A stretch of 38,566 nt of DNA from Blastocatellia bacterium (GTDB lineage: Bacteria > Acidobacteriota > Blastocatellia > HR10 > J050). Made by a program: the position numbers and the translations under genes. How positions within the stretch are numbered: the stretch's first letter is position 1; each line of letters opens with the position of its first letter. Below the pieces are notes generated by a model. It was not told where the DNA came from and did not search any database. It worked only from the letters and a program-made list of their open reading frames with translations. The DNA lies in the NCBI GenBank assembly GCA_025054955.1, contig JANWZE010000031.1, positions 1 through 38,566 of the forward strand. Direction: 5' to 3'. Below, piece after piece: positions 1,349 to 36,219 of the stretch.

Positions 1349-1375
1349 GTAGCGCAAGTTGGCAACTTGCGCTAC
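1349..1375. repeat. Perfect palindrome between csm4 and csm5 (REP-like hairpin)
   Basis: GTAGCGCAAGTT at 1349-1360 is followed by a three-base loop and its exact reverse complement at 1364-1375. The 12-bp stem overlaps the csm4 TAG stop (1374-1372) and lies about 33 bases upstream of the csm5 ATG. No U-tract follows in the direction of transcription, so it does not look like an intrinsic terminator. It could be a mobile REP-type palindrome or an RNA processing or attenuation element that tunes csm5 level. Confidence 0.75.
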
Positions 1376-2406: not shown

Positions 2407-3242
2407 TACTGTGTCCCTCCGACCGCTTGTTGGATTGATTGGGCGTAGCGGCTGGGCTGCAATTCGCCAATCTTTCTGTTTTGATCGAGCATCAAAACAG
2501 TCCCTGTACCCTGGTAGTAGTCATGAGATTTGAACGTTACAGTCACATTGGTGAAAGCAATTTTCCCCGCCCCACGTGAGCCGTAACCGCCCACGTAGTC
2601 ATCTTCAAGCAGCTCCATCGCCTTGAAAACGTGCTGCAACCAATCAATATCGGCCTGACAACCTGTACCGTTGAGATCGTAGAGGCTGTACACGAGTTCA
2701 AGTGGGGCAAAGACTGCCCCAGCAGGCACGCGCTCGTTTTGGCGCGGAACTGCTGCCGAAGTGATACGGTCAATGACTGCTTCCCATTTGACCTCTGTGA
2801 ACGGCAAGTCCGTTTTTGCTCGACGCAGCCTCTCAGTCGCCTCATGGCCTTTTGCCAACATTACGTCACGAACCAGAAGGCGAGTCGGTTTCAGTTGTGT
2901 CCACTGCCGACGCTGATCGCCTGGAGTGACACCAAAGATTTGGCACACAGCACACGTCGCATAGGCATCTTCCGTCTCGCACTCATGGACTCGGACGACT
3001 GGTTCCCGCCGTTGGATAAACTTGTTGACGTCATTCCCAAAATGCCTATCGAGTAACGAGCGCATCTTTCCACGCAACGAAGAGCCGGGAATATAGGGTT
3101 CACGAGTGACAGGATGACGAATGATGGGATTGTCAATCCCGCCGATGTCCAATCCTGCCGCCGCACCACCGATATGCAATCCCGTGACGGCTTCGATTTC
3201 GCCGGTGATGATGACCTTTCCTTTCAGTGTTATGTTGGGCAT
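2406..3242 (-). CDS. csm3: Csm3, type III-A backbone and target-RNA cleaving subunit
   Basis: Csm3 forms the repeated backbone of the Csm complex and cuts bound target RNA at 6-nt intervals. At 278 residues it is somewhat longer than many Csm3 proteins. The stretch GGIDNPIIRHPVTREPYIPG with the following SSLRGKMRSLLD is the family hallmark. Asp37 in that motif aligns with the catalytic Asp known from Streptococcus thermophilus Csm3 (D33), so RNase activity is probably intact. A later VGGYGSRGAGKIAF is the conserved C-terminal glycine-rich loop. Cysteines around residues 88-100 (CETEDAYATCAVC) may bind zinc. A strong ribosome site (AAGGAGG) precedes the ATG at 3242. It is preceded by csm2 and overlaps csm4 by one base. 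Confidence 0.95.
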   Translation of the reverse strand: MPNITLKGKVIITGEIEAVTGLHIGGAAAGLDIGGIDNPIIRHPVTREPYIPGSSLRGKMRSLLDRHFGNDVNKFIQRREPVVRVHECETEDAYATCAVCQIFGVTPGDQRRQWTQLKPTRLLVRDVMLAKGHEATERLRRAKTDLPFTEVKWEAVIDRITSAAVPRQNERVPAGAVFAPLELVYSLYDLNGTGCQADIDWLQHVFKAMELLEDDYVGGYGSRGAGKIAFTNVTVTFKSHDYYQGTGTVLMLDQNRKIGELQPSRYAQSIQQAVGGTQ

Positions 3243-3261
3243 AGGTAATCCTCCTTGATGT

Positions 3262-3696
3262 TCACCTTCCTCCTGCCGCTTTGTGATAGGCTAAAACGGC
3301 CTCGAAGAAATCTACAAAACGGGCGAATTTGGTTTCATCGTTCCCAACCTCATCAATCGCCCACGAAAGCACATCTTTCAGCTCGCGTGCTCCATTAGAG
3401 TTAGCACGGGCAGCAGCATAGGCTAGCTTTGGCTTGAGCAGCACGAACTCATTGGCATCGAAGCCTCGCATTTCCATTTGCTTGACTGTCCCATAAATGT
3501 TGCGGATTTGATTTGTTGTCAGGTTGCCCCGCTGCAATCGCGGTCCCAGACTCTCGGCAGCTTCCACCAACAGCCGTCCACCTTGCCTGATAAGCTCCTG
3601 CACTTGTTGCTGAGATAACTGCTCCCCTTGAGGGGCGCTGCGAGACCCTGATTGGTGCTGTTGTGATGTGCGATGTTCTCGACTCTCTCTCGGCAT
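3262..3696 (-). CDS. csm2: Csm2, small subunit of the type III-A complex
   Basis: This predicted helical 144-residue protein lies directly between cas10 and csm3, where Csm2 is found in III-A loci. The first 30 residues are low-complexity and rich in Gln, Ser and Arg. The rest (VQELIRQGGRLLVEAAESLG through the TTNQIRNIYGTVKQME segment) matches the Csm2 pattern, in which 'T.sQiR.iy..v' is the recognisable signature. Csm2 forms the small-subunit filament along the crRNA-target duplex. The ATG is three bases past the cas10 stop, with GGGAGGGA as ribosome site inside the cas10 end, so expression is probably coupled. Confidence 0.9.
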   Translation of the reverse strand: MPRESREHRTSQQHQSGSRSAPQGEQLSQQQVQELIRQGGRLLVEAAESLGPRLQRGNLTTNQIRNIYGTVKQMEMRGFDANEFVLLKPKLAYAAARANSNGARELKDVLSWAIDEVGNDETKFARFVDFFEAVLAYHKAAGGR

Positions 3697-3699
3697 ATA

Positions 3700-6282
3700 C
3701 TATCCCTCCCTTGTCAATAAAGATGTCCAGCGGGCGAGGACGTGCAGGACGGAAATAAGACCGTCTCGATCACGCGCAATCGCTTGCTGGAGGTGACGAA
3801 TCTTGTCTTGATGATCTGTGTAACGCTCTCCGAAGCGGCTCAGGTGATACACCAGCCGCCACACCCATTTGGCATAGGCAATTTCCTCCTCCATTTGTGC
3901 CAGGGTTATCTCCTTAGCGTTCATGCGATGACGCTGACGCTGACGATTCTCCTCGTACAGACTATGGATTTCGCTCAATCGGGTCAGGAAGGCGCGCGGC
4001 AGCGAGACCGTGCCGCCATCGCCTCTGAGCATGGCCCGTAATTCATCTTGTCTTTCTGCTATCTCGTTGAACCGCTCCCATCCAAGTGGAGTTTGCAAGA
4101 AACTGAGGGCATCCTTCTTCACTGAACGCCCATCAACAGTCCGCGTGTGCTCTTTCGCTTGGTCATCGAGCGCATATTTGGCATTATTGGCGAGTTGGTA
4201 AAGTGGAAACTTTTGGTGCTCGATGGCGATCCCACCTGATAGCGTGATATGGTCGCCGCCAACGAACTCTCTGAAGTCATCCCGGATTTGCTGAGCCAAC
4301 TTCGGCAGCACGCTCCACGCGCCGACAACGAACAGGTCATCCCCGCCTGCGTAGATCAGGTACAACGCGTCCTTATTTTCTGGTCGTGTGCTGCCCTGCG
4401 CCACAGGGTTGTATTGTTGGCACAACTGTGGAACCCAGCCTTCAAAGAATAGGCGTAACGACTCGCTCAGCGTGGTCATCCGCGAAATCGTCGCGTTGTT
4501 GCCCAGTCCTTTCTTAAAGACATCGCCAAGACTGTCCACATCCATTCGTAGCACGCCAAGCCACTTGACTCCCTCAGATGCCTCGGCAAGATCGCTGAAT
4601 TCGGCGATAACAAGCTCGCCATTACTCTCCCGCTTCATCGGAGTTGCATCCGCGAGCAAACGAGAATCAAAACTGACGGGCATGTCCCCCCAGCGGAATC
4701 GAGCCTTCACCTCATCAGTTAGAAAGTCAAGTGGACCAGAGGTATGAAAGGTGTAAACCAACGCGCCTGTTGCCCCGTTCGGTTTCTCAGGTACATCTTC
4801 GCCTTCATGGACTAACCATGGGAACACCCCGAATGCCTGTAGCACGCCCCGCCAATCCCATGGGTCGGGTGGCTCGCGCTCAGGGACAGTGAACAGCACA
4901 AGGTACGTTGGCTCACGCAGCAACTGACCTAGTCCTTCAAATTGGTAGCACCGACGACATTTTCGGATGCCATCATCCATTTCATCTCTTCCTTGTCTCC
5001 ATTCGCCATGACAAACTTGGCACATCTCTTCTGCTGTCGTGCCGAGCTGCTGAGCAGTGAACAGCGTCAGCATCATCTCATTACCGTCCAGCTCACGCCA
5101 CTTTCGCTGCTTGCGCTCATTGACTCGGCGGGAGACCTCGTCCCACTTGTGGGCAAAAGCATTGCCGCCCGCGTCATGCTCCAAAAAGTCAACGGCAGCA
5201 ACGGGAACATAATCTACTGTCAGCGACAAGTCGCCCTTGTGTGCTTTCCAAAGTCTCTGACTGATTTGCTGCCGCAGGTTGTCGAACCGCTCAGCGGTCT
5301 CCCGGTACGGCAACAACAAGTAGAAATGGCCGCCGCCAGCGAAGAGAAGATTCGTCATCGGCAAAGCAAACTGGCGCAGAATCCATGCCGCGATGACTTC
5401 GGTGAGCAGTTGAAGATAAAACGACCGCCCGCGCAACCCGCGCGCGGCTCCGCTGCTGGTGAGCAGGTAGAGGAAATCCTGGGTGCCCGAAATGTCGCCT
5501 TTGGCCAAGGCACAGAGGGGGCGATTCACTAACTCATCCTCAGTCGGCGTTGACGGTTGCTTGAAATAACGATGTGAGAGCGCCCCGTAGAGCGTCTGCA
5601 CCTCACGCTCCTCTAATCGTGCTCTGACCAAACAAGCCGCAATTGCCGCCGTCGTTTTCAAATGGTGATAGAGGGATATGTCGGGAATCGTTTTGTAGCG
5701 CGTGTCGGAAGGAATCGCCCAGGTGTATTTCCTCAAAACAGCTAACAACGTCGGAATGTCGCCAGGTGGCACGCGAGTGACTTCGTTAGTGAAGGCTTGC
5801 CATAAAGTTTGATAAGCTTCTGCTGAGCCGGATTCATCTCGGCCTGGCATCAATACTTGACGATTAAGCGATAAGGCCAGGAGCTTGTGATATATCTCAT
5901 CGGCTCCTCTCCCTTCCAACCTGACCCGCGAGAGGACGCTCCGCAGGACACTCTCTGCCCGCCCGCGTGCGCCTTCCTCGTTGCCCTCTGCTTCCGCGCG
6001 CTCGTTGGCGGACAAACGATCTGCGAGTGAAACCAATAACTCGTCATATAAAGATGGATCGTGATGCTTGAGCACTAACCGCCGCAAGGTGTGTTGATCT
6101 GTCGGCCAGTGGCTCATCCACTCATCCACAAAGAGCGCGCTGAATGGTTCATGACTATACTTTGCCTGGAAGGCTTCGCCCCTGGCCCAGTCAGGCAGCG
6201 GCTGGAACGTCCGCTCGCGGGCCTTGCCAATATCATGTAGCAGCGCCCCTAAAGTAATCAGTCCTTCATCCTGTTTATTCAT
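3700..6282 (-). CDS. cas10: Cas10/Csm1, type III-A large subunit with HD and GGDD domains
   Basis: Cas10 is the signature protein of type III CRISPR. Its HD domain cuts single-stranded DNA and its Palm domain makes cyclic oligoadenylate when target RNA is bound. The 860-residue protein starts with LGALLHDIGK (His16-Asp17), followed by KHHDP and SLADRLSANERAE, as in HD-containing Csm1. A four-cysteine zinc site (CQVCHGEWRQ, then CRRC) sits mid-protein. The cyclase motif YAGGDDLF is intact at about residues 646-649, so both activities should be present. The ATG at 6282 has a very strong ribosome site (GGAGGGGAAGG). The gene follows cas6 after a 136-bp gap. No ring-nuclease or cOA-activated effector (Csm6, Can1 or similar) is visible in this window. 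Confidence 0.96.
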   Translation of the reverse strand: MNKQDEGLITLGALLHDIGKARERTFQPLPDWARGEAFQAKYSHEPFSALFVDEWMSHWPTDQHTLRRLVLKHHDPSLYDELLVSLADRLSANERAEAEGNEEGARGRAESVLRSVLSRVRLEGRGADEIYHKLLALSLNRQVLMPGRDESGSAEAYQTLWQAFTNEVTRVPPGDIPTLLAVLRKYTWAIPSDTRYKTIPDISLYHHLKTTAAIAACLVRARLEEREVQTLYGALSHRYFKQPSTPTEDELVNRPLCALAKGDISGTQDFLYLLTSSGAARGLRGRSFYLQLLTEVIAAWILRQFALPMTNLLFAGGGHFYLLLPYRETAERFDNLRQQISQRLWKAHKGDLSLTVDYVPVAAVDFLEHDAGGNAFAHKWDEVSRRVNERKQRKWRELDGNEMMLTLFTAQQLGTTAEEMCQVCHGEWRQGRDEMDDGIRKCRRCYQFEGLGQLLREPTYLVLFTVPEREPPDPWDWRGVLQAFGVFPWLVHEGEDVPEKPNGATGALVYTFHTSGPLDFLTDEVKARFRWGDMPVSFDSRLLADATPMKRESNGELVIAEFSDLAEASEGVKWLGVLRMDVDSLGDVFKKGLGNNATISRMTTLSESLRLFFEGWVPQLCQQYNPVAQGSTRPENKDALYLIYAGGDDLFVVGAWSVLPKLAQQIRDDFREFVGGDHITLSGGIAIEHQKFPLYQLANNAKYALDDQAKEHTRTVDGRSVKKDALSFLQTPLGWERFNEIAERQDELRAMLRGDGGTVSLPRAFLTRLSEIHSLYEENRQRQRHRMNAKEITLAQMEEEIAYAKWVWRLVYHLSRFGERYTDHQDKIRHLQQAIARDRDGLISVLHVLARWTSLLTREG

Positions 6283-6397
6283 CTACCTTCCCCTCCAATC
6301 CCATGTCCGCAAAATCCTCGATCGGTGAATCAATGAGCCATTTACATTCATCTCCATAAGGACCCGACATTAGCAGAGTCGGTCTGCGTTCATCCAC
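6275..6397 (-). CDS. Possible small ORF between cas6 and cas10
   Basis: A 40-codon frame (GTG at 6397, or ATG at 6370 for 31 codons) ends with TAA overlapping the cas10 ATG by a few bases. It carries the cas10 ribosome site inside its last codons. The ATG form contains MSGPYGDECKWLIDSPIEDF. The frame is in register with cas6 and runs uninterrupted from just after the cas6 TAG stop. It could be a short leader peptide that couples cas10 translation, a remnant of a longer Cas6 C-terminus, or chance. There is no good ribosome site for its own start and I recognise no family. Confidence 0.22.
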   Translation of the reverse strand: MDERRPTLLMSGPYGDECKWLIDSPIEDFADMGLEGKVDE

Positions 6398-6418
6398 ACC
6401 AGTAACATTGCAGTAACC

Positions 6419-7567
6419 CTATTCCGCTGACTTCCTCTCGCTCGACGGCACACACCCCGGCAGAGCCAGAGCATCAGTCAGCGGTCGCAGGCTTGCAATT
6501 TCATACTTTCCCAGCCCGAACGTCGTGTTCTTGCCCACATGCAGCAGCTCGCCCAAGATCACGAGCGGCAAAAATGCGCCCAGCTCCGCCGCTCCTGCAA
6601 ACCCGTACTCCACTTCGCCGACCAGCCCGCCAAGCTTCATCTTCGTCTGCTGCCGATTGGAGTACCGTTCCCAATCAAGCCAGCGAAGCTCGTTCCTGAC
6701 GGTCATCACCGACCGGGCTTGCTCAATCATGGCTCGATGATCCAATACCAACTCGCCGCCGCCGTGCACAAGTGTTAATTGCCACATTCGCCGGAGCAGA
6801 TTGCGAACCAGCAGCTCAAAGCTGATGCCCCCTTGCAAGTCGCCCTGAACCTGAAGCCGTACAGGCGTCAGGAAAACGAGGCGCAAATGTGACGATTGGA
6901 GATTTGAAATTTCAGATTCTCCGCCAGTGGTTCGCGCATGCAGTTCAGCAGTGTTGGACAGAGTCGAGGATTCAAGGTTTGATGAGATTTGAGCGTGGCG
7001 GTGGGCAATCCACTCCTCGGCGCTCATACTGAATGAACCTGATGCCAGACGCTGCGTCGCACTTTCGTAAATCACCCGCTCATGACCATCGCCATCGCGC
7101 CACGCGACCGATTCCAACACGAATCGCCCGCGCCGCTGACCCAATCCCTTTTGCCCCGCCTGATCCAGAGCAAAGATGATGTAAGGCAGATAATCAATCG
7201 CTCGACCGATGAGCGTCAGCCCGAACGTCAACGGCTCACCCGGCGCGTACTGCTGCTTCTCTTCAAGCGGCGGCTCCAGCACATAGGGGTGCGGCGCAAC
7301 TTTCTGACCGCGAAAGGCGGCTACACCTTCGGGCGGCAACGTCTCGAATACCTGCGTGTAGACGCAGCTTGGGCGCACCAAGCAAATCTCACAATTCAGA
7401 TCGCGCCGAATGCAGACAGCGCGTTTCAACGCATTTCCGAATGCACCCCGCAGCGTTGAGCCTTTATAGCGCGGCAACCACGCCTCAGTCTCAGTGCGCA
7501 TAGTGAATCTGAAGGTGCTAATCCGAGTCGTTAATGCTAAGGACATGACGCCCTCGCTGTGAATCAT
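6419..7567 (-). CDS. cas6: Cas6 family pre-crRNA processing endoribonuclease
   Basis: Cas6 cuts the CRISPR repeat transcript to give crRNAs with an 8-nt 5' handle for the Csm complex. The 382-residue product has an N-terminal RAMP domain with YKGSTLRGAFGNALKRAVC and a cysteine cluster CEICLVRPSC that is usual in this subfamily. The middle carries GQKGLGQRRGRFVLESV, and the C-terminal RAMP domain ends with the glycine-rich LGELLHVGKNTTFGLGKYEI, the diagnostic Cas6 loop (PF10040-type). The start at 7567 is supported by GAGGAG five bases upstream; an internal ATG at 7546 is the alternative. It is the first gene of the minus-strand cas operon and lies about 400 bp from the two-repeat array. Confidence 0.92.
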   Translation of the reverse strand: MIHSEGVMSLALTTRISTFRFTMRTETEAWLPRYKGSTLRGAFGNALKRAVCIRRDLNCEICLVRPSCVYTQVFETLPPEGVAAFRGQKVAPHPYVLEPPLEEKQQYAPGEPLTFGLTLIGRAIDYLPYIIFALDQAGQKGLGQRRGRFVLESVAWRDGDGHERVIYESATQRLASGSFSMSAEEWIAHRHAQISSNLESSTLSNTAELHARTTGGESEISNLQSSHLRLVFLTPVRLQVQGDLQGGISFELLVRNLLRRMWQLTLVHGGGELVLDHRAMIEQARSVMTVRNELRWLDWERYSNRQQTKMKLGGLVGEVEYGFAGAAELGAFLPLVILGELLHVGKNTTFGLGKYEIASLRPLTDALALPGCVPSSERKSAE

Positions 7568-23838: not shown

Positions 23839-24951
23839 CTACACTCTCATCGGCATAACAACATATCTATACCCCTCTTGCTCAGTGGCCGGCCGGATCA
23901 ATGCTGGACTTGTGTTGCTCATCAATTCAATCCGCACATCAGCAGCGTCAACAACGTTGAAAAAGTCTAGTAAGTAACGACTGTTGAAACTGATCTCAAA
24001 CGGGTCACCTTCGTAATCGGCCAGCAAATCCTCAACTGCCTCTTCATCACTTACGCTGCCTCGAGACGTTAACTCAATGCGCCCAGACTGAAACTCCAAC
24101 TTCACAGCATGACTGCGCTCATCGCTTACCAGTGAGACGCGCCGCAGCGCCGCTGCTATCGCTTCACTACTGACTTGAGCAATCCGATCATTGTCCTTGG
24201 GCAAAACCATCTCATAGTTTGGAAATTGACCGGTCAACAGGCGAGCCGCCAACTCCCGATGACCAACGCGAAAATAGACGTGATTTTCATCCACGCTGAT
24301 GTCAACAAACTCATCGGGGTTCGCAATCAGCTTGCTGCACTCATGAAGCGCCTTCTTGGGAATCAATACCTTCAGACCTTCTTCCCATAGCGACGTCTCA
24401 ATTTGCTTATCAACAATCGCCAACCGATGCCCATCAGTCGCAACCATTCTCAAAACGTTATCGGAGAGCGCCTCCAGTTGAATGCCCGACAGCGCATACC
24501 GCGATTCTTCCTGCGTGGTTGCAAATATGGTTCGCGCAATGCAGGCTTTGAATGTACCACCTGGTATACTCAACCGTGCCGACGGAAATTTGGGAATCTG
24601 GGGAAAATTTTCCTTTCCCAAACCGGCTATTTTGAAGCGCACCCGCTCGCATTGCAAACTAACACGGTTATTTTCATCGCCCTTGAGGTGAATCTCCGCC
24701 TCGGGTAGACTGCGGACAATCTCAAATAGTTTCCTTGCATCAATGGCCACACCACCCGAAGAGTCCACTACAGCAGGGCATTGGGTTTGCAAACTAACGT
24801 CCAAGTCGGTTCCATGAATGATAATGCCAGCCTCGGACGATTCAATGAGGATATTGGAAAGAATTGGAATTGTCGCTCTTTTCTCTACGACCGATTGCAC
24901 AAGTCCCAATTCTTGCTGAAAATCGGATTTTTTGACTTTGATTTGTAACAT
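23839..24951 (-). CDS. dnaN: DNA polymerase III beta subunit (sliding clamp)
   Basis: The clamp tethers polymerase III to DNA. The protein (370 residues from the ATG at 24951) has the three-fold repeated clamp architecture. It begins MLQIKVKKSDFQQELGLVQS, contains the family segment LSGIQLEALSDNVLRMVATDGHRLA, and ends YRYVVMPMRV, the conserved C-terminus. The ATG at 24951 follows GGGAG; a longer frame beginning with GTG at 24972 is less likely. It lies immediately beyond the oriC on the side away from dnaA. Confidence 0.97.
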   Translation of the reverse strand: MLQIKVKKSDFQQELGLVQSVVEKRATIPILSNILIESSEAGIIIHGTDLDVSLQTQCPAVVDSSGGVAIDARKLFEIVRSLPEAEIHLKGDENNRVSLQCERVRFKIAGLGKENFPQIPKFPSARLSIPGGTFKACIARTIFATTQEESRYALSGIQLEALSDNVLRMVATDGHRLAIVDKQIETSLWEEGLKVLIPKKALHECSKLIANPDEFVDISVDENHVYFRVGHRELAARLLTGQFPNYEMVLPKDNDRIAQVSSEAIAAALRRVSLVSDERSHAVKLEFQSGRIELTSRGSVSDEEAVEDLLADYEGDPFEISFNSRYLLDFFNVVDAADVRIELMSNTSPALIRPATEQEGYRYVVMPMRV

Positions 24952-24972
24952 TGATGTGAGTCTCCCTTTCAC

Positions 24973-25216
24973 TGTTATCTGTTATAAAAATGCTGATATA
25001 TAAGGATAGTAGTAGTAGTAGGGCCTGTGGAAAAGTCGAATAACTTTGTATTTGTTTGTTTATCAATTATTAGGCAGAGCGTAGCCTGTTGAAAAAAATG
25101 TGAATAAACTGTGGAAAAAATAAAAATCTGTGGAAAACTCGTTTTCCTGGAGCCCATTATTTTTTTTCCACAGGTCGTCCACAGGGGGGGGATGTGGAAA
25201 ATTATATTTAACATAA
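24973..25216. other. Replication origin oriC: DnaA-box cluster, DnaA-trio and AT-rich segment
   Basis: The gap between dnaA and dnaN contains near-consensus DnaA boxes at 25026-25034, 25110-25118, 25129-25137 and 25193-25201 (all TGTGGAAAA). TTTTCCACA is at 25164-25172, and the exact TGTGAATAA is at 25099-25107. An AT-rich stretch (24973-25005) adjoins a TAG array, and a G8 run lies at 25184-25191. The pairing of boxes with an unwinding element and the neighbouring dnaA and dnaN make this the likely origin. Confidence 0.9.
25007..25021 (+). promoter_or_regulatory. DnaA-trio element: five TAG triplets next to GC spacer and DnaA box
   Basis: TAG is repeated five times on the plus strand (3'-GAT-5' array). 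It is followed by GGCC and the box TGTGGAAAA at 25026-25034, and is flanked on the other side by AT-rich sequence. This is the order box, GC-rich spacer, trios, AT-rich known from the Bacillus subtilis basal unwinding system, where DnaA assembles on a single strand. Confidence 0.8.
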
Positions 25217-26608: not shown

Positions 26609-26711
26609 ATCTTCGTTGTCCTAAATGTAATCTTTAAGTTCTATCTGCAATATTGAAAATGGCAAACCCAGATTGCATTTAAGAGTCATTGATATTTAAT
26701 AACTAATGTTT

Positions 26712-26731
26712 TTTTCCACAACTTTTCCACA
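26712..26731. promoter_or_regulatory. DnaA-box pair upstream of dnaA
   Basis: Two TTTTCCACA sites at 26712-26720 and 26723-26731 lie about 105-120 bp before the dnaA ATG and just downstream of the candidate dnaA promoter -10 box. They could form the second half of a bipartite origin or an autorepression site. A weaker AATCCACC lies a few bases further upstream. Confidence 0.75.
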
Positions 26732-26736
26732 GCCCT

Positions 26737-26765
26737 GTTATAATCCACCTGAAAATAAGTTTTAA
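26737..26765 (-). promoter_or_regulatory. Candidate dnaA promoter
   Basis: On the minus strand TTAAAA (26765-26760) and TATAAC (26742-26737) are separated by 17 bases. The DnaA boxes begin just downstream, which fits repression of dnaA by its own product. The -35 box is weak. Confidence 0.4.
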
Positions 26766-26919
26766 GTACGTAACATTATAAATTACAATAATTTAACCTG
26801 TTGAAAACTTTTGCTAGGGTAACATATTTTCCATTCTTTTGCAAGAGAAATCCACAGCTAATCCCAAATTTATACATTCTTGATTGAATTAACGGAGTGC
26901 TAGCTTTGATCTGCGGGAA

Positions 26920-27030
26920 GCAAACGACCACCCCAGTAGAAGGAGGCCGACGACAAGCGAACATCGCTATAAATAATGGGAGGCACGATTCAGGGGCAAA
27001 CGACTATCACAGTAGAAAGAAGCCGACAAA
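26920..27030. repeat. Pair of imperfect direct repeats near dnaA
   Basis: Two roughly 36-base copies (26920-26955 and 26996-27030) share GCAAACGAC, CAGTAGAA and GCCGAC blocks, at about 75-80% identity by eye. They are 76 bases apart. A protein-binding iteron or duplicated promoter is possible. Confidence 0.5.
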
Positions 27031-27126
27031 GGCTGCTTGTGAGAAACCAGCTCCATCCAGATTCTAAGTGCAGAGATCGAGAAACAGACAGGCGTTGCTT
27101 ATGAAGAGTATATGCAATTTGCAATA

Positions 27127-27318
27127 TTAATCGTTTTTTTCTGCTGGCTTATATGAATCAAGAATTCTGCGACCTTCGGTACTATTGGGATCAATTGTCC
27201 GAATGTGCTTCTTTCCCTTCATTTCCCAGATAGCGGTTATTACTCCTTCTTTTTCAACTGCATGGTAGATAATTTCTTCATTGGCATTTGATTGGACTTG
27301 ATTCTCGTTATTTAACAT
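27127..27318 (-). CDS. Small conserved-looking protein of unknown function
   Basis: This 63-residue protein has a good ribosome site (GGGAGGT, 5 bases before the ATG). It is soluble, charged and without a membrane span or cysteines. The sequence contains EEIIYHAVEKEGVITAIWEM and HIRTIDPNSTEGRRILDSY, which look like a compact beta-rich domain with a helical end. It lies 21 bp after the bactofilin gene in the parAB transcription unit and points at dnaA. I recognise no family. Confidence 0.7.
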   Translation of the reverse strand: MLNNENQVQSNANEEIIYHAVEKEGVITAIWEMKGKKHIRTIDPNSTEGRRILDSYKPAEKND

Positions 27319-27339
27319 TGTTACCTCCCAACGTTAAAA

Positions 27340-27780
27340 TTACCCGGTATGTACACCGTTTGTGTCGGCCAAGATGGACGATTTTGGTTCTCGGATTAAA
27401 GTAGAAGGCTCTTTTTCATTAGGCCTTATGGTGTTGACAACACCTTCCAGCATTGCACCTTCATCAACTTTGAGGATAGGTGTGAAAATATCTCCCTGGA
27501 CTCGACCTGTGGATAATAGGTGAATCTTTTCAGTAGCAACCACGTTTCCAGTGATTGTCCCGCCTAATGTTAGTACAGCAACCTCAACGTTTCCTTCGAC
27601 AAGACCATGTTCACCTATGACGAGTTCTCCTTCGGAAAATATACCTCCCTTAAGCCTTCCGTGTAGGTGAAGAACATCGGAAAATCGTAAATCTCCAACG
27701 ATTTCTGTTCCTAGATCGAGGAATCCACGTACTTGAGGAGCTTTGAGATTGCGAAATTTCATGTTGGTGTTCTTCCTCAT
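27340..27780 (-). CDS. Bactofilin (polymer-forming cytoskeletal protein)
   Basis: Bactofilins assemble into filaments by a right-handed beta-helix and often act with ParAB in chromosome positioning. The 146-residue product has the repeated glycine-spaced rungs GFLDLGTEIVGDLRFSDVLH, LKGGIFSEGELVIGEHG, VEGNVEVAVLTLGGTITGNV and LLSTGRVQGDIFTPI, with polar tails at each end. The ATG at 27780 overlaps the parB stop by four bases (ATGA), so it is translationally coupled to parB. Confidence 0.93.
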   Translation of the reverse strand: MRKNTNMKFRNLKAPQVRGFLDLGTEIVGDLRFSDVLHLHGRLKGGIFSEGELVIGEHGLVEGNVEVAVLTLGGTITGNVVATEKIHLLSTGRVQGDIFTPILKVDEGAMLEGVVNTIRPNEKEPSTLIREPKSSILADTNGVHTG

Positions 27781-28628
27781 TGCATGAGAATTTTATAAAT
27801 TCGATCAAAGTCTTCATCTGAGTAAAACTCTATCTCTAGTTTTCCTCCTTTTGCGGTAGGAAAGACACGGATTTGGGTGTTAAGCTTCCGACGGAGCTTT
27901 TCAACAGCAGCGTGTACATTTGCGTCAAAGGTGACTTGCTGCTTGGGCTTTTTGTTGGTTACCTTTTTTGTCGCATTGTTCAATTTTTGTACTGCTTGCT
28001 CTGTGGCACGGACAGAAAGGCCTTTCGCAATAACCTCATGGGCGAGTTGTCGTTGCAAGTCAAGCGTCATGAGTCCCAAAATTGCACGAGCGTGACCCAT
28101 TGAAAGGCGCTCCTGCTCTACCAGCTCCTGAATGTCTTTTGGAAGTTTAAGTAAGCGAACGTAGTTCGTTATCGAAGTTCGATCTCGTCCCACTCGCTTA
28201 GCTACCTCCTCCTGGGTTATCCCCAGCACATCAATAAGTTTTTGAAAAGCTTGAGCTTCTTCGATTGGATTCAAATTTTCGCGTTGAATATTTTCTATCA
28301 GGGAAAGTTCAAGGACCTTTTCGTCGGGTATATCGCGAACAACAACAGGAACCCTTTTTAGCCCAGCCATTTGGGAAGCACGCCAACGGCGCTCGCCAGA
28401 TATTAGTTGGTATCGAAATCCATTTCGACGAACTAGTAACGGTTGCACGATCCCGTTTTCGCGAATAGATTGTGCTAACTCTTCTAGTTTTTGGGTATTG
28501 AAGCTGGTTCGAGGTTGATACTCACTGGGATCAATAGAGTCAATGTCAACTTCTATAAACTGTTCCTCGCGAGGTTGGGCTTCAGCTAGTAATGCACTAA
28601 GCCCCCTGCCGAGCGCTCTTCTTGTCAT
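27777..28628 (-). CDS. parB: Chromosome-partitioning protein ParB
   Basis: ParB binds parS and slides as a CTP-dependent clamp. The 283-residue protein has the N-terminal motif LGRGLSALL, the CTPase box with GERRWRAS (residues about 77-84), the conserved LIENIQRENLNPIEEA and a helix-turn-helix (EEVAKRVGRDRTSITNYVRL). The ribosome site AGGAGGTGAG lies inside the parA end, since the two genes overlap by 32 bases. Three parS sites lie at 29466-29686. Confidence 0.97.
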   Translation of the reverse strand: MTRRALGRGLSALLAEAQPREEQFIEVDIDSIDPSEYQPRTSFNTQKLEELAQSIRENGIVQPLLVRRNGFRYQLISGERRWRASQMAGLKRVPVVVRDIPDEKVLELSLIENIQRENLNPIEEAQAFQKLIDVLGITQEEVAKRVGRDRTSITNYVRLLKLPKDIQELVEQERLSMGHARAILGLMTLDLQRQLAHEVIAKGLSVRATEQAVQKLNNATKKVTNKKPKQQVTFDANVHAAVEKLRRKLNTQIRVFPTAKGGKLEIEFYSDEDFDRIYKILMQ

Positions 28629-29385
28629 TGTTATATCTCACCTCCTGAGCTAAGTTACGATAGCGTTCAGCCCCTCTAGACCGTGAGTCATATAGGATGA
28701 TTGGCTTGCCATGACTGGGCGCCTCTGCTAGTCTCACATTGCGAGGAATGACAGTTTTGAAAACCTGTGAGCCGAGAAAATCTCGTAAGTCGCTGACTAC
28801 TTGACTTGATAGGTTTGTTCGTTCGTCATGCATAGTCAGCAAAAACCCCTCAATTGACAGAGTAGGGTTCAGTGTACGCCTGATGCGAACAAGAGTGTCC
28901 CACAGGTCAGAAACGCCCTCCAGAGCAAAGTATTCACATTGAATAGGTATTAAGACAGAGTCAGCCGCTGTAAGGGCATTAAGTGTTAGCAATCCAAGTG
29001 AGGGAGGGCAATCAATGATAATGTAATCGTATGAATCCCTAATGGGATCAAGAACTTGCTTAAGTTTGAATTCACGTCGCTCAAGCTCAACCATTTCCAG
29101 CTCAGCACCCGTAAGATTTCGGTCCGATGGACAGACAAAAAGGCTCTCAATTTCTGTCGGCTGTATTACAGTATGGATAGGCTCATCTAGGACAAGCACG
29201 TGGTACATGCTTCTGGTGAAGGCTTGCCTTTTAATACCCATACCTGATGTTGCATTAGCTTGAGGATCAAGGTCTATAAGGAGCGTCTTAGCTTTAGCCT
29301 CTGCCATAGAGGCAGCGAGGTTTATGGCAGTCGTAGTCTTTCCTACTCCCCCTTTTTGGTTGGCTATTGATATGATTCGTCCCAT
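28597..29385 (-). CDS. parA: ParA-family partition ATPase
   Basis: ParA moves ParB-parS complexes. The deviant Walker A motif KGGVGKTTT starts near residue 11, and the segments LLIDLDPQANATSGMG and YIIIDCPPSLGLLTLNAL follow. The ATG at 29385 gives MGRIISIANQKGG; an upstream TTG at 29391 adds two residues and is unlikely. 262 residues. The gene is followed by overlapping parB. Confidence 0.97.
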   Translation of the reverse strand: MGRIISIANQKGGVGKTTTAINLAASMAEAKAKTLLIDLDPQANATSGMGIKRQAFTRSMYHVLVLDEPIHTVIQPTEIESLFVCPSDRNLTGAELEMVELERREFKLKQVLDPIRDSYDYIIIDCPPSLGLLTLNALTAADSVLIPIQCEYFALEGVSDLWDTLVRIRRTLNPTLSIEGFLLTMHDERTNLSSQVVSDLRDFLGSQVFKTVIPRNVRLAEAPSHGKPIILYDSRSRGAERYRNLAQEVRYNNDKKSARQGA

Positions 29386-29447
29386 ATGCAAGGACTCTCA
29401 TCCAAGTTTTCTTGAAAATACCACAATTCAATAGAAAATGAAAGGAA

Positions 29448-29480
29448 AATAATCGAAACGGGGGTTGTTTCACGTGAAAC
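29448..29480. repeat. Duplicated parS-containing unit, copy 1
   Basis: A 33-base unit with AATAATCGAAAC at its left and a parS palindrome at its right end. The second copy (29520-29553) has AATGATCGAAAC and a parS site in the same arrangement. The duplication implies that the parS site spread by local copying. Confidence 0.6.
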
Positions 29481-29481
29481 C
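29466..29481. promoter_or_regulatory. parS site 1
   Basis: TGTTTCACGTGAAACC matches the bacterial parS consensus TGTTTCACGTGAAACA at 15 of 16 positions. It lies about 80 bases upstream of the parA start, on the ParA-ParB operon side. Confidence 0.93.
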
Positions 29482-29538
29482 AAAATCCGCATCAAATTAA
29501 GGGTTTCGGCACGGCCAAAAATGATCGAAACAGGGTTT

Positions 29539-29554
29539 CGTTTCACGTGAAACG
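29539..29554. promoter_or_regulatory. parS site 2
   Basis: CGTTTCACGTGAAACG is a perfect palindrome with the 14-base parS core GTTTCACGTGAAAC. It lies in the second copy of the duplicated unit. Confidence 0.93.
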
Positions 29555-29566
29555 CTGTTAAGTCTC

Positions 29567-29669
29567 ATATCAAATGCCGGGTGAAGATCGCAGATTGCCG
29601 CTCAGGCGGTTCAGGTCTCGGCGGGCTTTTGGGCTCCATGAACGTGGGTTTTTCCGCCGCAATTGGTAT
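29567..29669. mobile_element. MITE-like 103-bp repeat, copy A, forms the rsmG 3' end
   Basis: Gapless alignment with the 33624-33726 element gives about three quarters identical positions (78 of 103 by hand). Ends are ATATCAA and TTGGTAT (inverted, one mismatch). No gene lies wholly inside. It encodes the last 19 codons and stop of rsmG. No clear target duplication is seen. Confidence 0.7.
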
Positions 29670-30330
29670 TAGTTTCACGTGGAACAATTTTTAATAATGA
29701 AATAATCCAGCGATTCCTTGATAAAGGGATTTTGTATCTGGTGGCATCCCAATTTTCTTTGAATAAGTCTAAGCATTTGTAAAACAGTTCATTGCCGGAA
29801 AAAAACAGGATTTGATAGCAGGCTTTGGCAAATAAAAAAATCTCCGGCAAGATAGTTGCCATTTTATCAATAGCACGGCAAGAGACCAAATCAAAACACT
29901 GGTTTTGGTACTCTTGAAATCGCCCATGAAAAACGGCAATGTTCGAAAGTCCAAGCTCTCGCGATATGTTTTTAAGGAATGAAGCCTTGCGAGATTGGCT
30001 TTCGATGAGAACCACTTTAAGCGTTGGTCTTATAGTAGCTAGCACAATACCTGGAAACCCCGGACCTGACCCAATATCAACTAGTGATTCCAGCTGTGGT
30101 TGGATGAACTGGGAAGCATAGAGCGACTCCAAATAATGAATCCTGGCTGCTTCATAGGGATCAACCACCGATGTTAAGTGTGCAACTTTGTTCCACTTGA
30201 GCATGGCTATATAGTGGTCAGAGAGGGCTTTTGCGAGCGCATCGTTCATATTGAGCCCAAAAGATGGGGCTAGTTGGTGAAGAGCCTGCTGGAAGGCAGC
30301 CGCTCTATCGTGGTGCTTTTGTTTGGTCAC
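29611..30330 (-). CDS. rsmG: 16S rRNA (guanine-N7) methyltransferase RsmG, with a tail from an inserted repeat
   Basis: RsmG methylates G527 of 16S rRNA. The family features are the N-terminal helices ending [16 protein letters not shown], then [15 protein letters not shown] (SAM binding) and [16 protein letters not shown]. The frame is open upstream to 30483 inside mnmG. I chose the GTG at 30330 (239 residues) since it gives the usual N-terminus and a 26-bp overlap with the mnmG end, but no ribosome site is evident. The last 19 residues lie in the 103-bp repeat copy A, and VPRET just before them is encoded by a parS site. Confidence 0.88.
29671..29686. promoter_or_regulatory. parS site 3, inside rsmG
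   Basis: AGTTTCACGTGGAACA read on the other strand is TGTTCCACGTGAAACT, a near-canonical parS (consensus TGTTNCACGTGAAACA). It encodes Val-Pro-Arg-Glu-Thr in the rsmG C-terminus and abuts the MITE-like element by one base. Confidence 0.9.
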
Positions 30331-32224
30331 GTTTGGATCGAAGTTGAATATGAAGATACAGAAGAGAGATAGCTGCTGGCGTGACTCCAGGAATTCTGCG
30401 GGCTTGCCCAATTGTACGCGGAAGAACTCGTGTGAACTTTTCGACCATCTCGCGAGAGAGACCGGGGATACTCTGATAATCAAGAGTAGGTGGGATTGGC
30501 TGTGAGTCAGCTTTATCTATTTTCCGTGCAAGTTGTTGTTGATTGATGGCATATCCTTCATACTTGAAGTCATTAACAACGACGGATAGTTCTTCTGGGC
30601 TTAGATCTTCCCTGAGAGCTGGTGGAATGAATTGAATGAGGTGTTGCCATGAAACTTCTGGTCTACGAATCAGGTTGGCTATTTGAGTTGGTTCGGTTAG
30701 TTTGATCGCTGTTTGGTGATAAAAGAGTTCAGCACCGGGAGATTGTGGAGAGATTTTTTGATTGATAAAGAAGCTTTTCAATTGGCTTATCCGTTTCTGT
30801 TTGCTGAGGAATGAGAAGTAACGGTCGCTAGAAATCAGTCCTAGACGGTACCCAATTTCCGTGAGTCTTGCATCCGCATTATCGTAACGCAAAAGGAGTC
30901 TGGTTTCTGCCCGAGATGTAAACATTCGATAAGGTTCATCAACCCCCTTGGTTACTAGATCATCAATTAAGATACCGATGTAACTTTGAGTTCGAGGTAA
31001 AATCAGTGGATCATCGCCTCGTGCTCTTAGTGCTGCATTGATGCCTGCCATGATTCCTTGGGCCGCTGCTTCTTCGTATCCTGTTGTTCCGTTGATTTGT
31101 CCCGCATGAAACAATCCTTGAATCTTTTTGGTTTCAAGCCATGGGTGTAGTTCAGTTGGATCCACGAAGTCGTATTCGATGGCATAGGCAGGACGGATGA
31201 ATTTGACTTTTTCAAGGCCTGGAATTGTTCTCAGCATTTTCAGTTGAATATCTGCTGGCAGGCTTGAAGACAATCCGTTTGGGTAAATTTCGTTTGTGTA
31301 ATATCCTTCGGGTTCAAGAAAGATCTGGTGACGCTCTTTGTCGGAAAACTTAACCACTTTATCCTCTATTGAAGGACAGTAACGTGGTCCGATTCCAACG
31401 ATTGATCCGCTATAAAGTGCAGATTTATCAATGTTTTGTCTGATTATCTCGTGTGTCTTTTGTGTTGTATAGGCGATGAAGCAATCAATCTGAGGTTGCT
31501 TAATTCTATCTGTGGTAAAAGAAAATGGGACAGGTTGATCATCGCCTGGTTGTCGCTCAGTTGCTGAAAAGTCAATTGTTCGGCCATCGAGTCTAGGTGG
31601 TGTACCTGTTTTCAGGCGACCAACACGGAATTTGAATCCTTTGATGGATTCGGCCAAGCGAATGGACGCTTTCTCTCCGCACCGTCCGGCTGTGAAGGTT
31701 GTTCTGCCGATATGGATAAGGCCGTTCAAGAACGTGCCGGTTGTCATAACGACTGCTTTTGCGCCAAGCCGTCTGTGGTCTGTTAGCTCAACGCCAATAA
31801 CGCGGGCTTTATCTATTATGAGGTCAACAACTTCTCCTTCAATAATTTGGAGATTAGGCAGTTGAGCCAGCCTGCGTTGCATTTCACTTCTATAGGCAGT
31901 TCGATCTGCTTGGGCACGGGGTGACTGAACGGCTGGACCACGACTACGATTGAGCAAGCGAAAATGGATACCGATACGATCAATAACTTGACCCATGATA
32001 CCGCCTAGGGCATCAATCTCCCTTACTAGGTGCCCTTTGGCTATTCCGCCAATGGCTGGATTGCAGGACATCTGGGCGATGAGGTCTTTCTTGATTGAAA
32101 TTAAAGCTGTACGCTGTCCCATGCAAGCTGATGCCCATGCCGCCTCACACCCAGCATGGCCACCTCCGACTACGATGACATCGAATTGGTCGTCGAACTG
32201 GTATCGAGTCATTTGCCCGTTCAT
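30305..32224 (-). CDS. mnmG: tRNA uridine-5-carboxymethylaminomethyl modification enzyme MnmG (GidA)
   Basis: MnmG with MnmE makes cmnm5U at the wobble position of certain tRNAs. The 639-residue flavoprotein begins with the FAD motif [17 protein letters not shown] (residues 16-32) and carries [38 protein letters not shown] and [20 protein letters not shown]. The C-terminal domain ends with [20 protein letters not shown] and [13 protein letters not shown], as usual. The ATG at 32224 overlaps the mnmE stop by four bases. Confidence 0.98.
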
Positions 32225-33609
32225 TTGCCTATACAGAATGTGGAAAATATCTTGTCCAGTATATCTTCAATTGTCGTTTCCCCGGTTATTTCTCCCAACA
32301 GTCTCAAGCCTTGATGTAAGCCTACAAGAACCACTTCCTCTGAGTAACCTTCCTCTGCTGCTTTCCGTGCCTCTTTCAGCGATTCGATCACCCGTACAAT
32401 CAGATCGTGGTGTCGAGAATTGGTGAGTATAACATTTTCTACACCCACCGTACTATGTTGTGTAACCATTTCCACAATTTTTTTTCTTAGCTCGTCAAAT
32501 CCTGCTGTGGTTAATGCAGAAACACGGACCCAAGCTGAGCCGTTAGCAGCCGATTCGATTCTCTCGTATGTAAGTTCAGATGGAAGGTCAGATTTATTGA
32601 TCGCAATCAGTCTTGGGAACGGTTTAGTGTCGGATAGAATATTCATATCTTCTTGTGTTAATTCCTCGGCTCCATTGAGAACCACCAAAATTAAATCAGC
32701 CTCTGTCATAACGGTGCGAGTACGAACAACTCCTAACTTTTCAACTGGGTCGGTTGATGAACGGATACCCGCCGTGTCAGTGAGGTAAACGGGTATTCCC
32801 TCGATTGAAACAGCATCGCTTAAGGTATCACGGGTTGTGCCTGGGATGTCTGTCACAATGGCTCTCTCTTTGTTTAATAATCTATTGAAAATGCTGGACT
32901 TACCAACGTTAGGCCGACCTACAATGACAAGCTCGATGCCTTCGCGGAGAATGCGCCCATAGCCAAAAGACTGTTCTAATGTAGTTAATTCCTTCAAAAG
33001 TTCATCAAGCTTGATGCTCATGCGGTCTAAAGACTCAGGGCTGACGTCGTCCTCAACAAATTCGACAGCGGTCTCAAGGTGGACGATCATCTCTTTGAGG
33101 CATTCTTTGATGGGCTGTAGTTGTTTTGACAAACTGCCTTGTAGCTGCTGAACGGCCACCTTGGCCTGATGGGTTGTCTGAGCCTCGACCAGGTCACGTA
33201 CCGCCTCGGCTTGAGTAAGGTCAATACGCCCGTTGAGAAAGGCACGCAGCGTAAATTCCCCAGGTTGAGCTGGTCTAGCTCCTCGTTCGATGGTGAGCTC
33301 TAGAAGGCGGCGCAGTACAATCGGACTGCCGTGGCAACCGATCTCGACGAGGTCTTCCCCAGTATAGGATTTTGGTTTCTGGAAGAACGTGACGACAGCT
33401 TCATCTATAATTTCGCCTGATTGGGGATCAAAGATATAGCCGACACGCGCCATGTTGGCAGCAAGAGGGCGCTGGTCTCGAGCGCGGAAGAGCTGCTCAG
33501 TAATGGATAGGGACTTACTTCCGCTCAAGCGAACAATACCAATGCCACCACGGCCTGGCGCCGTCGCTATAGCGCTGATCGTATCGTCAAGGTTCGTGTT
33601 CTCGAACAC
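32221..33609 (-). CDS. mnmE: tRNA modification GTPase MnmE (TrmE)
   Basis: MnmE works with MnmG in wobble-uridine modification. The 462-residue protein has the N-terminal formyl-THF-binding domain ([20 protein letters not shown]), a helical domain, the G domain (GRPNVGKSS at 231-239, DIPGTTRDT) and the C-terminal FCIGK motif. The start is a GTG at 33609; no ribosome site is clear. The upstream gap of 126 bp is nearly filled by the 103-bp repeat copy B. Confidence 0.97.
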
Positions 33610-33623
33610 ACCGAGGTTTTATA

Positions 33624-33726
33624 ATACCAAATACCGAGTGAAGATTGCACATTGCCGCTCAGTCAGTTCAGGTTCTGCCATGCTTCTTGGCTCCGTGAAC
33701 GTGATCGTTCTCTTCACAATTGGTAT
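33624..33726. mobile_element. MITE-like 103-bp repeat, copy B, between yidC and mnmE
   Basis: It begins ATACCAA and ends TTGGTAT, perfect 7-bp inverted termini. It aligns without gaps to 29567-29669 and has the same orientation. It fills the yidC-mnmE gap except for 9 and 14 bases. It encodes no protein. Confidence 0.7.
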
Positions 33727-33735
33727 AAGCCCTGC

Positions 33736-35550
33736 TCAACTTGCAGCTTCAGTTTGTTTGGGCTCCAGGGTTGTTTGGGTTTGCTCGGCACTCGCTTGAA
33801 TCATGCGATTGATCACCAGTTGTTGGGCAGTTGCCACGATGTTACTGAACATCCAATAGAGTACCAAGCCGCTAGGGGCTTTCCAGAAGAATAAGAAGGT
33901 GAACAGCACGGGCATCAGCACGCCCATCATGATTTTTTGAATTTTCTGTTGGGCCACCTGTGCTGGATCGTCTGGAGCGACAGGCGGAGGTGGCATCACA
34001 AATGTTTGGGCCATCATAGAAAGGCACATCAAAATCGGCAACACGTGCATGTCGAAACCGAACAAAGAGACGGTATCGGGTTGCGAAAGGTTATTGATCC
34101 ATCCAAAAAAGGGGGCGTGGCGCACATCAATAGAAACTGTCAGCAACACAAAAAAGGCCCAGAAGAATGGCAATTGTACAAGCAACGGCAGGCATCCGCC
34201 CAACGGGTTGGCTTGGCGCATCAAGCGAATTTGCTCCATCTGGAGCTCTTTTAGCTTGGGATCGTCTTTCTTCAATCGTTTCATTTGGTTTTGCAGCTCT
34301 TTCATCTTTGGCTGCATAGCTTGCGCTTGTCTCATTTTGATAGCGCCCTTCCACTTCAAGGGAAAGAAGAGCATGTTGATGACGAAGGTGATCAGAAGAA
34401 TGGCTACTCCGTAGTTATGCGTGAGTTTGTAGGCCAGGTTCATGACGGGGATCAAGAAACCGACGACAATCGGTTTAATGATCGAGGTCATGAATCCGTA
34501 TCTGATCAAGTGCTCAAGGCTTGGGTTTTTCAGTTCCCGACCCAGTTCAGCGAGAATTTTATGGTCTTTAGGCCCGACGAACATCCGATGGGTGATCTGT
34601 TGAGGAATCGGTGTCAGTGTGGCGATAATCGGCTTTGGTGTCTCTGTGCCGTTGATATTGACCATCTGGGTTGTATGGCGAATGCTTGCTTGGGCTACCG
34701 GCTGGGCGAGGATCAGAGCCAGGGCGAAGTAGTTGTCATCGGCACTGATCCAGTTGATTTGACCAGTCATTTGCTGAACACTGGTGTTACTGGCATCAAC
34801 GCGTTCCACGACGCCGTTGACATCTGCTACGACGCTTGGACCAGCAATGTAGCCTCCAAGCTCAGTGACACTCTGATCACCGAAGTTCGGTCCCAGAACT
34901 ATCTGTGTATCTAGGGGCTGTCCGTTTTGCCGCACTGTGACGGCGTATTCAAAATCATATCGGTTTCCGCGGAACACAAATCGCTTGACCACTTCCAGCC
35001 CATTTGCTTGCAAAGAGAAGATAAGTACATGACTGTCGCTTTCGCCCAATTCCATCGTCTCAGCAGATTGGGAGACGGCGTAGGTATGGGATTTGAGTGT
35101 TTGGTTAATCTGTTGGTCAGAGGTAACGAGTTCCAGAGGCGCGCCCAGCTTGTCTAAGACATCCCGCGATTGTGTGATGAGTTCTAACTCTTTGCCATCG
35201 GCTCCCCGAATGAGTGGGCGCAACCCTGCGTAATTTTTCTTAATTGTCCAGCTAACGGGCACGGCACCTCGCGTCGTGAAGGTGGCGCGCCAGTATGGCG
35301 TTTGTACTTTAATCAGCCGTTCTGGCGCTGGCGGCGCATTGGTGGAAGGCTGCTCCGGCGGTAGAGGCGAGCTGGTCACAGGTGGTTGGTTGGACGTGCT
35401 CAGATTGGTATCGGGTGAAGCTGTTTCAGGCTTGGTTGCTGTTTGCGTGTGCGACGCGGGGGGCGGCACTTCCTGGGGCGGGAACAGGTAGTACCAAACA
35501 ACCAGCACCAGTGTTGAGAGAACGATGAAAAGTAGGTGTCGCTTTTCCAT
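33736..35550 (-). CDS. yidC: Membrane protein insertase YidC/Oxa1
   Basis: YidC inserts and folds inner-membrane proteins, including ATP-synthase subunit c. The 604-residue protein has an N-terminal span (LLFIVLSTLVLVVWYYLFPP), a low-complexity Pro/Thr/Ser linker, a large periplasmic P1 beta domain (VQTPYWRATFTTRGAVPVSW onward) and the C-terminal five-span Oxa1 core. That core includes NYGVAILLITFVINMLFFPL and LGGCLPLLVQLPFFWAFFVL, with a basic tail. The P1 domain indicates a Gram-negative-type YidC. A jag gene, common after yidC in Firmicutes, is absent. Confidence 0.96.
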   Translation of the reverse strand: MEKRHLLFIVLSTLVLVVWYYLFPPQEVPPPASHTQTATKPETASPDTNLSTSNQPPVTSSPLPPEQPSTNAPPAPERLIKVQTPYWRATFTTRGAVPVSWTIKKNYAGLRPLIRGADGKELELITQSRDVLDKLGAPLELVTSDQQINQTLKSHTYAVSQSAETMELGESDSHVLIFSLQANGLEVVKRFVFRGNRYDFEYAVTVRQNGQPLDTQIVLGPNFGDQSVTELGGYIAGPSVVADVNGVVERVDASNTSVQQMTGQINWISADDNYFALALILAQPVAQASIRHTTQMVNINGTETPKPIIATLTPIPQQITHRMFVGPKDHKILAELGRELKNPSLEHLIRYGFMTSIIKPIVVGFLIPVMNLAYKLTHNYGVAILLITFVINMLFFPLKWKGAIKMRQAQAMQPKMKELQNQMKRLKKDDPKLKELQMEQIRLMRQANPLGGCLPLLVQLPFFWAFFVLLTVSIDVRHAPFFGWINNLSQPDTVSLFGFDMHVLPILMCLSMMAQTFVMPPPPVAPDDPAQVAQQKIQKIMMGVLMPVLFTFLFFWKAPSGLVLYWMFSNIVATAQQLVINRMIQASAEQTQTTLEPKQTEAAS

Positions 35551-35581
35551 AGGAATTAGTTTTCAGTTTTGTCAGTGCGCT

Positions 35582-35857
35582 TCATGTCTCCTTGACGCTG
35601 AACGACTGGCCAGTGTCGCCCATTGGCTCGTCAGTGGGTGGATCATACCCGCCCTGATGAAACGGATGACATCGCAGAAGGCGGCGCAAACTCATGATCA
35701 ATCCTTGTCGAACGCCAAACCGCTCGATGGCTTGTTTTGCGTACTCAGAGCAGCTCGGGATGAAACGACACGAAGGCAAGAGCAATGGTGAGACGCCATA
35801 CTGATAGGCGAGAATTGGCAAAGTCACCATTTGTTTGCCAAGCTGTTGCCACGTCAT
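35582..35857 (-). CDS. yidD: Membrane protein insertion efficiency factor YidD
   Basis: This 91-residue, cysteine-rich basic protein has the family segments [20 protein letters not shown] and [15 protein letters not shown]. It helps YidC function. The ATG overlaps the rnpA stop by four bases (ATGA), and the gene is 31 bp upstream of yidC. Confidence 0.96.
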
Positions 35858-36219
35858 CGATTCGTTTCGCTTGCCTCCATCAATTTTTCAATAAAACGTC
35901 GGAATTGTTTGTCCACCTCAGCGTATGTCGCGTTGATCATAGAGTGTTTGACATTGACGACGATATCCATTGGAACAGGAAAAAACCGTTTGTTTCGGCG
36001 AAATGTTTCCTTCAGGAGTCGCTTGCAGCGATTTCGCACCACGGCCCTACCGATGCGTTTGGTGACGGTGATGCCCAAGCGGCATACGTCCTGGGCGTTA
36101 TCAAGCACAAAGATCGTGAATAAAGGGAAATGGTAGCGCCGGCCACGGCTGTAGACCTGCCGGAAATCAGCTTGTTTGAGGATTCGCTCGTGTTTGCTGA
36201 AGCGCTCATTGGGATGCAT
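35854..36219 (-). CDS. rnpA: Ribonuclease P protein component RnpA
   Basis: The small basic protein (121 residues) helps the RNase P RNA recognise precursor tRNA. The hallmark [15 protein letters not shown] (RNR-x-KR signature) follows [11 protein letters not shown]; the N-terminus has [20 protein letters not shown]. The ATG at 36219 shares one base with the rpmH stop (TAATG), a classical coupling. Confidence 0.96.

Follow-up and report, generated by a model that had tools for sequence, protein, structure and literature searches.

A Bacillus-type unwinding system very probably marks the chromosomal origin of a Blastocatellia acidobacterium, and relatives may carry a facing trio array

Introduction

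The basal unwinding system (BUS) of Bacillus subtilis is the closest described counterpart of the element that we analyze here, which lies between dnaN and dnaA in a 38,566-nucleotide stretch of DNA from a Blastocatellia bacterium (contig JANWZE010000031.1, which we will call the window). A BUS is recognized by at least 3 NAN trios that lie no more than 16 bp from a DnaA box, which may have up to 2 mismatches. Of 2,070 species, 85% are predicted to have such a system, and BUS elements from several phyla have been reconstituted (PMC8287927); 57% of BUS cases have tandem boxes. In a cryogenic electron microscopy structure from B. subtilis, the DnaA residues that contact the trios are N187, I190, I193, R202, and E228 (PMC10721633). 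How the helicase is loaded on the strand opposite the DnaA filament has been described as unclear (PMC10201434), and loading mechanisms are still unclear according to PMC13326638. Our literature search found no origin study for the class Blastocatellia.

We are confident that the window contains the chromosomal oriC of this acidobacterium, with a canonical BUS. It is an ordinary, textbook-like, and well-conserved case of a known type, and it shows detailed conservation of the BUS in a further class, Blastocatellia. The new lead is an opposite-strand array in the relatives, not the window's own origin.

Results

A BUS-type origin between dnaN and dnaA

Direct reading of the interval 24973-25216 gives five TAG triplets, a GGCC spacer, and a DnaA box in direct succession (Table 1). 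An earlier note on this DNA had located all three correctly to the base. The box, which is one mismatch away from TTATCCACA, is 4 bp from the trios, and the AT-rich stretch that the note had described on their other side is 76% AT. The order and strand of these elements equal those in Bacillus sp. 28A-2 (L045), so the B. subtilis-type layout proposed in the note also holds. We identify a BUS-type oriC partly because the layout, spacing, and orientation match the published definition exactly.

The same element is found at the same place across the class. We compared the DnaA-dnaN regions of 126 genomes of Blastocatellia, and most of them have the anchor box, a 4-nucleotide GC spacer, and CTA-type trios (CTA in the dnaA-to-dnaN direction) at this position. 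GGCC is the commonest spacer (30), followed by GGCA (21), GGCT (7), and GCCC (7). The exact fivefold repeat is present in 45 of the 126 genomes, across five families, so, contrary to the note, it is not unusually regular within the clade; its identification as trios is strengthened by conservation. In most genomes of family f6, the gene next to dnaA is not dnaN but a convergent one of the ppx/gppA type, and the origin sequence is kept. (The f6 loci in which dnaN does not adjoin dnaA are L019, L021-L023, L114, and L117-L119.)

DnaA boxes are far above chance. The note had counted about five boxes beyond the anchor box, and a motif scan found five exact matches to TTWTNCACA between 25099 and 25201, of which one is inverted; a further box, at 25087, has one mismatch. 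Across the window there are 11 exact boxes versus 2.9 expected, and 0 of 100 shuffles reached 11; six of the 11 are packed into 176 bp. Two other exact boxes lie upstream of dnaA (26712-26731, 11 bp apart). This pair could serve autoregulation or form a second origin lobe.

The window's DnaA keeps all five of the residues that read the trios in B. subtilis, as N206, I209, I212, R221, and E247. The cumulative G-C skew of the window has its minimum at 24,771, which adjoins the trio element; according to the note, a minimum far from this site, or a lack of conserved trios at this spot elsewhere in the clade, would have counted against the origin, and we found neither. The gene order on the minus strand, rnpA-yidD-yidC-mnmE-mnmG-rsmG-parA-parB-bactofilin-dnaA-[oriC]-dnaN and then atpI, atpB, and atpE (ATP synthase), is also of the origin type from rnpA to dnaN. 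The genome encodes DciA, and we found no match in it to the DnaB_2/DnaD family, so we expect helicase delivery to be DciA-type. All of these observations support a BUS-type oriC.

From B. subtilis and other species, we infer how DnaA would bind and form a filament, how the DNA would melt, and how the helicase would be loaded. DnaA would bind the anchor box (25026-25034) as well as the cluster of boxes at 25087-25201, and would then grow past the GGCC spacer and along the five plus-strand trios as a single-strand-binding filament. Each trio would be caught between adjacent DnaA protomers. The filament would open the AT-rich stretch at 24973-25006, where the helicase would be loaded.

Table 1. 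Features of the origin region (window coordinates)
Feature	Positions	Strand	Basis
dnaN	23839..24951	-	TIGR00663, 313 bits; ATG start at 24951 inferred from sequence
Position of the mirror array, degenerate, AACAGATAACAGTGAAAGGG	24964..24983	-	aligned by distance from trios; p = 0.93
AT-rich stretch, presumed unwinding element, 76% AT	24973..25006	.	base composition
DnaA-trio array, 5 x TAG (CTA x 5 in dnaA-to-dnaN direction)	25007..25021	+	direct reading; conserved across Blastocatellia
GC-rich spacer GGCC	25022..25025	.	direct reading
Anchor DnaA box TTTTCCACA, next to the trio array; reads TGTGGAAAA in the window	25026..25034	-	exact TTWTNCACA
Degenerate second box TTATTCGAC, abutting the anchor box	25035..25043	-	inferred by comparison with relatives
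DnaA box with one mismatch, TTTTCAACA	25087..25095	-	motif scan
DnaA box TTATTCACA; reads TGTGAATAA in the window	25099..25107	-	exact TTWTNCACA
DnaA box TTTTCCACA	25110..25118	-	exact TTWTNCACA
DnaA box TTTTCCACA	25129..25137	-	exact TTWTNCACA
DnaA box TTTTCCACA, opposite orientation	25164..25172	+	exact TTWTNCACA
DnaA box TTTTCCACA	25193..25201	-	exact TTWTNCACA
dnaA	25217..26608	-	TIGR00362, 576 bits
			

A second, opposite-strand array in relatives

Many Blastocatellia have a second trio-like array, carried on the opposite strand. It lies past the AT-rich stretch, on the dnaN side of the CTA trios and about 25 nucleotides from them. This mirror array reads TAG-NAN-TAG-TAA-AAG-G, or roughly TTAGNANNAGTAAAAGG(C) in the dnaA-to-dnaN direction. 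It was noticed among loci L019-L031 and L114-L210 and is strongest in families f5 and f6.

The mean best-run score of the mirror array was 3.79, versus 2.09 for dinucleotide shuffles (z = 26, 90 genomes). For 40 non-redundant sequences it was 3.33 versus 1.97 (z = 13), and after removing family f5, as far as the locus list allowed, it was 3.17 versus 1.91 (z = 10, 21 sequences). Same-strand and reversed controls scored 1.5-1.7. The spacings between TAG or TAA triplets peak at 3, 6, and 9 nucleotides (93, 60, and 66 observed versus about 26 expected for each), and off-phase distances are near or under expectation. The group-level in-phase ratio is 2.23 in Blastocatellia versus 0.75 in 27 Bacillota; the mirror array is absent from the Bacillota loci. 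A test of the phase of the A's, anchored on AAAAGG, gave a strong result with all genomes and a weak one with the non-redundant set (p = 0.09), probably because the length of the A run varies; the anchor-free spacing test was clear.

Families f5 and f6 show the signal clearly and f4 and f8 give mixed results, and in f1 (the window's own family), f3, and f9 it does not reach significance, so we make no claim for the class as a whole. In the window, the corresponding stretch at 24964-24983 is degenerate (p = 0.93) and shares bases with what is probably the ribosome-binding site of dnaN. We therefore do not claim a mirror array there; a second array about 25 bp beyond the first is found at the group level, and most clearly in f5 and f6.

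The first array is anchored by a box, and in most genomes there is no DnaA box behind the second. We considered such a box as a general feature and rejected it: nearby boxes are found only in genus g24 (L024 and L120, where the box is close behind the second array) and in L039. In the dnaA-dnaN interval of L039 (bacterium UASB270), the arrays face each other and a box is directly behind the second one (TAGTAGAGAAAG-ATTC-TGTGGATAA). Judging from its sequence, this could be a complete mirror BUS.

Weighing other explanations

Some points weigh against a BUS-type origin in the window. The second tandem box is degenerate, versus a clear tandem in many relatives; at this position, other members of the window's family have TTCATCCAC and many other relatives have TTTTCCAC. 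On the dnaA side the skew is weak, at about +280 over the next 13 kb versus -1052 over the preceding 25 kb; it was computed over the window, not the whole replicon, and the genome is a draft with 152 contigs. Also, the annotated trio of Thermotoga maritima is only supportive (PMC10316083), so sequence alone is no proof that a trio is essential.

If the TAG repeat were a chance trinucleotide microsatellite beside ordinary DnaA boxes, it would have no role in unwinding. Besides the repeat itself, this explanation can point to a second copy of the exact 15-mer in the 4.69-Mb genome (two occurrences in all). But the other copy is inside a coding region and lacks DnaA boxes, and the window's single occurrence (allowing up to 2 mismatches) compares to 0.00 expected by shuffling. 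Conservation had already disfavored a microsatellite, as the box, the GC spacer, and the CTA arrays keep their place across families whose intergenic sequences otherwise mostly differ. We consider it extremely improbable. We give hardly any credence to the idea that the repeats serve dnaN expression, as a leader, promoter, or mRNA hairpin, rather than replication. It would fit with the overlap between the right-hand side and the ribosome-binding site of dnaN in the window, and the CTA and TAG arrays of relatives could pair in principle. However, we saw no covariation between the left and right arrays (9.38 for own pairs versus 9.34 +/- 0.11 for swapped pairs), so a hairpin between them is unlikely and we rejected it. 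And in most f6 genomes, where the ppx/gppA-type gene replaces dnaN, both arrays persist, so for f6 we also rejected the right array as a promoter or leader of dnaN.

Alternatively, the active unwinding site might be elsewhere, such as at the boxes at 26712 and 26723 upstream of dnaA, and the dnaA-dnaN cluster might be auxiliary, as in the bipartite origins that exist in B. subtilis and H. pylori. Although these two boxes are exact, we found no trio array near them, and the skew reaches its minimum toward dnaN. This makes such a site very unlikely, and we retain the dnaA-dnaN interval as the BUS-type origin.

Genes and other features of the window

The note was right to place the element between dnaN and dnaA, but the noncoding part is slightly longer than it had stated: to judge from the sequence, dnaN probably starts at ATG 24951 and not at GTG 24972 of the listed open reading frame. 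The nearest named DnaA is 68% identical and comes from a Blastocatellia metagenome-assembled genome; the origin sequence of that locus (L032) is the same as in L017, a genome of the window's class. This places the organism among the Blastocatellia acidobacteria. Transcription of the rnpA-yidC-mnmE-mnmG-rsmG-parA-parB-bactofilin-dnaA block (26609-36219) runs toward the origin, and a fork that started between dnaA and dnaN would meet it head-on. Around the start of parA are three parS-like sites (29466, 29539, and 29671, spanning 29466-29686) with 1-2 mismatches to TGTTTCACGTGAAACA, versus 0.2 sites expected. About 17 kb from oriC, at 1372-7567, are genes of a Type III-A CRISPR (clustered regularly interspaced short palindromic repeats) system: Cas6, Cas10/Csm1, Csm2, and two RAMP proteins, including Csm4.

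Discussion

We tentatively suggest that the unwinding element of Blastocatellia origins may have a DnaA-trio array on each strand, the two facing each other. DnaA might capture both strands with a separate filament on each, and in this way mark both for a helicase in bacteria that lack DnaD. The window's family would keep the first array and only a degenerate form of the second. If functional, the mirror array would let the second strand be marked for helicase loading with no need of DnaD, and facing arrays would bear on how the helicase is placed on the strand opposite the DnaA filament. The arrays are also mutable sequences for testing second-strand loading. We found no facing trio arrays in the literature, as covered by titles, abstracts, and passages, with subscription papers outside that coverage.

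Compared to the B. subtilis BUS (PMC6669920, PMC8287927, PMC10721633), the window has the same order and orientation, 4-bp GC spacer, 3'-GAT-5' trios, AT-rich stretch, position between dnaA and dnaN, and trio-reading residues of DnaA. It differs in that the abutting second box is degenerate and that the genome has DciA instead of the DnaD/DnaB_2 family. In B. subtilis, a DnaD Recognition Element lies opposite the trios (PMC10201434). The complement of any CTA/TAG array holds TnnT steps, so there is a likeness, but the DnaB_2 family was not found in the window's genome, so we do not expect that pathway here. The oriC of T. maritima, with its trio and extended trio, shares TAG repeats inside the DNA unwinding element (PMC10316083). 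Its second set of TAGs is described with the trio, between the trio and a TTATT motif, whereas the second set in Blastocatellia is on the opposite strand, past an AT-rich gap.
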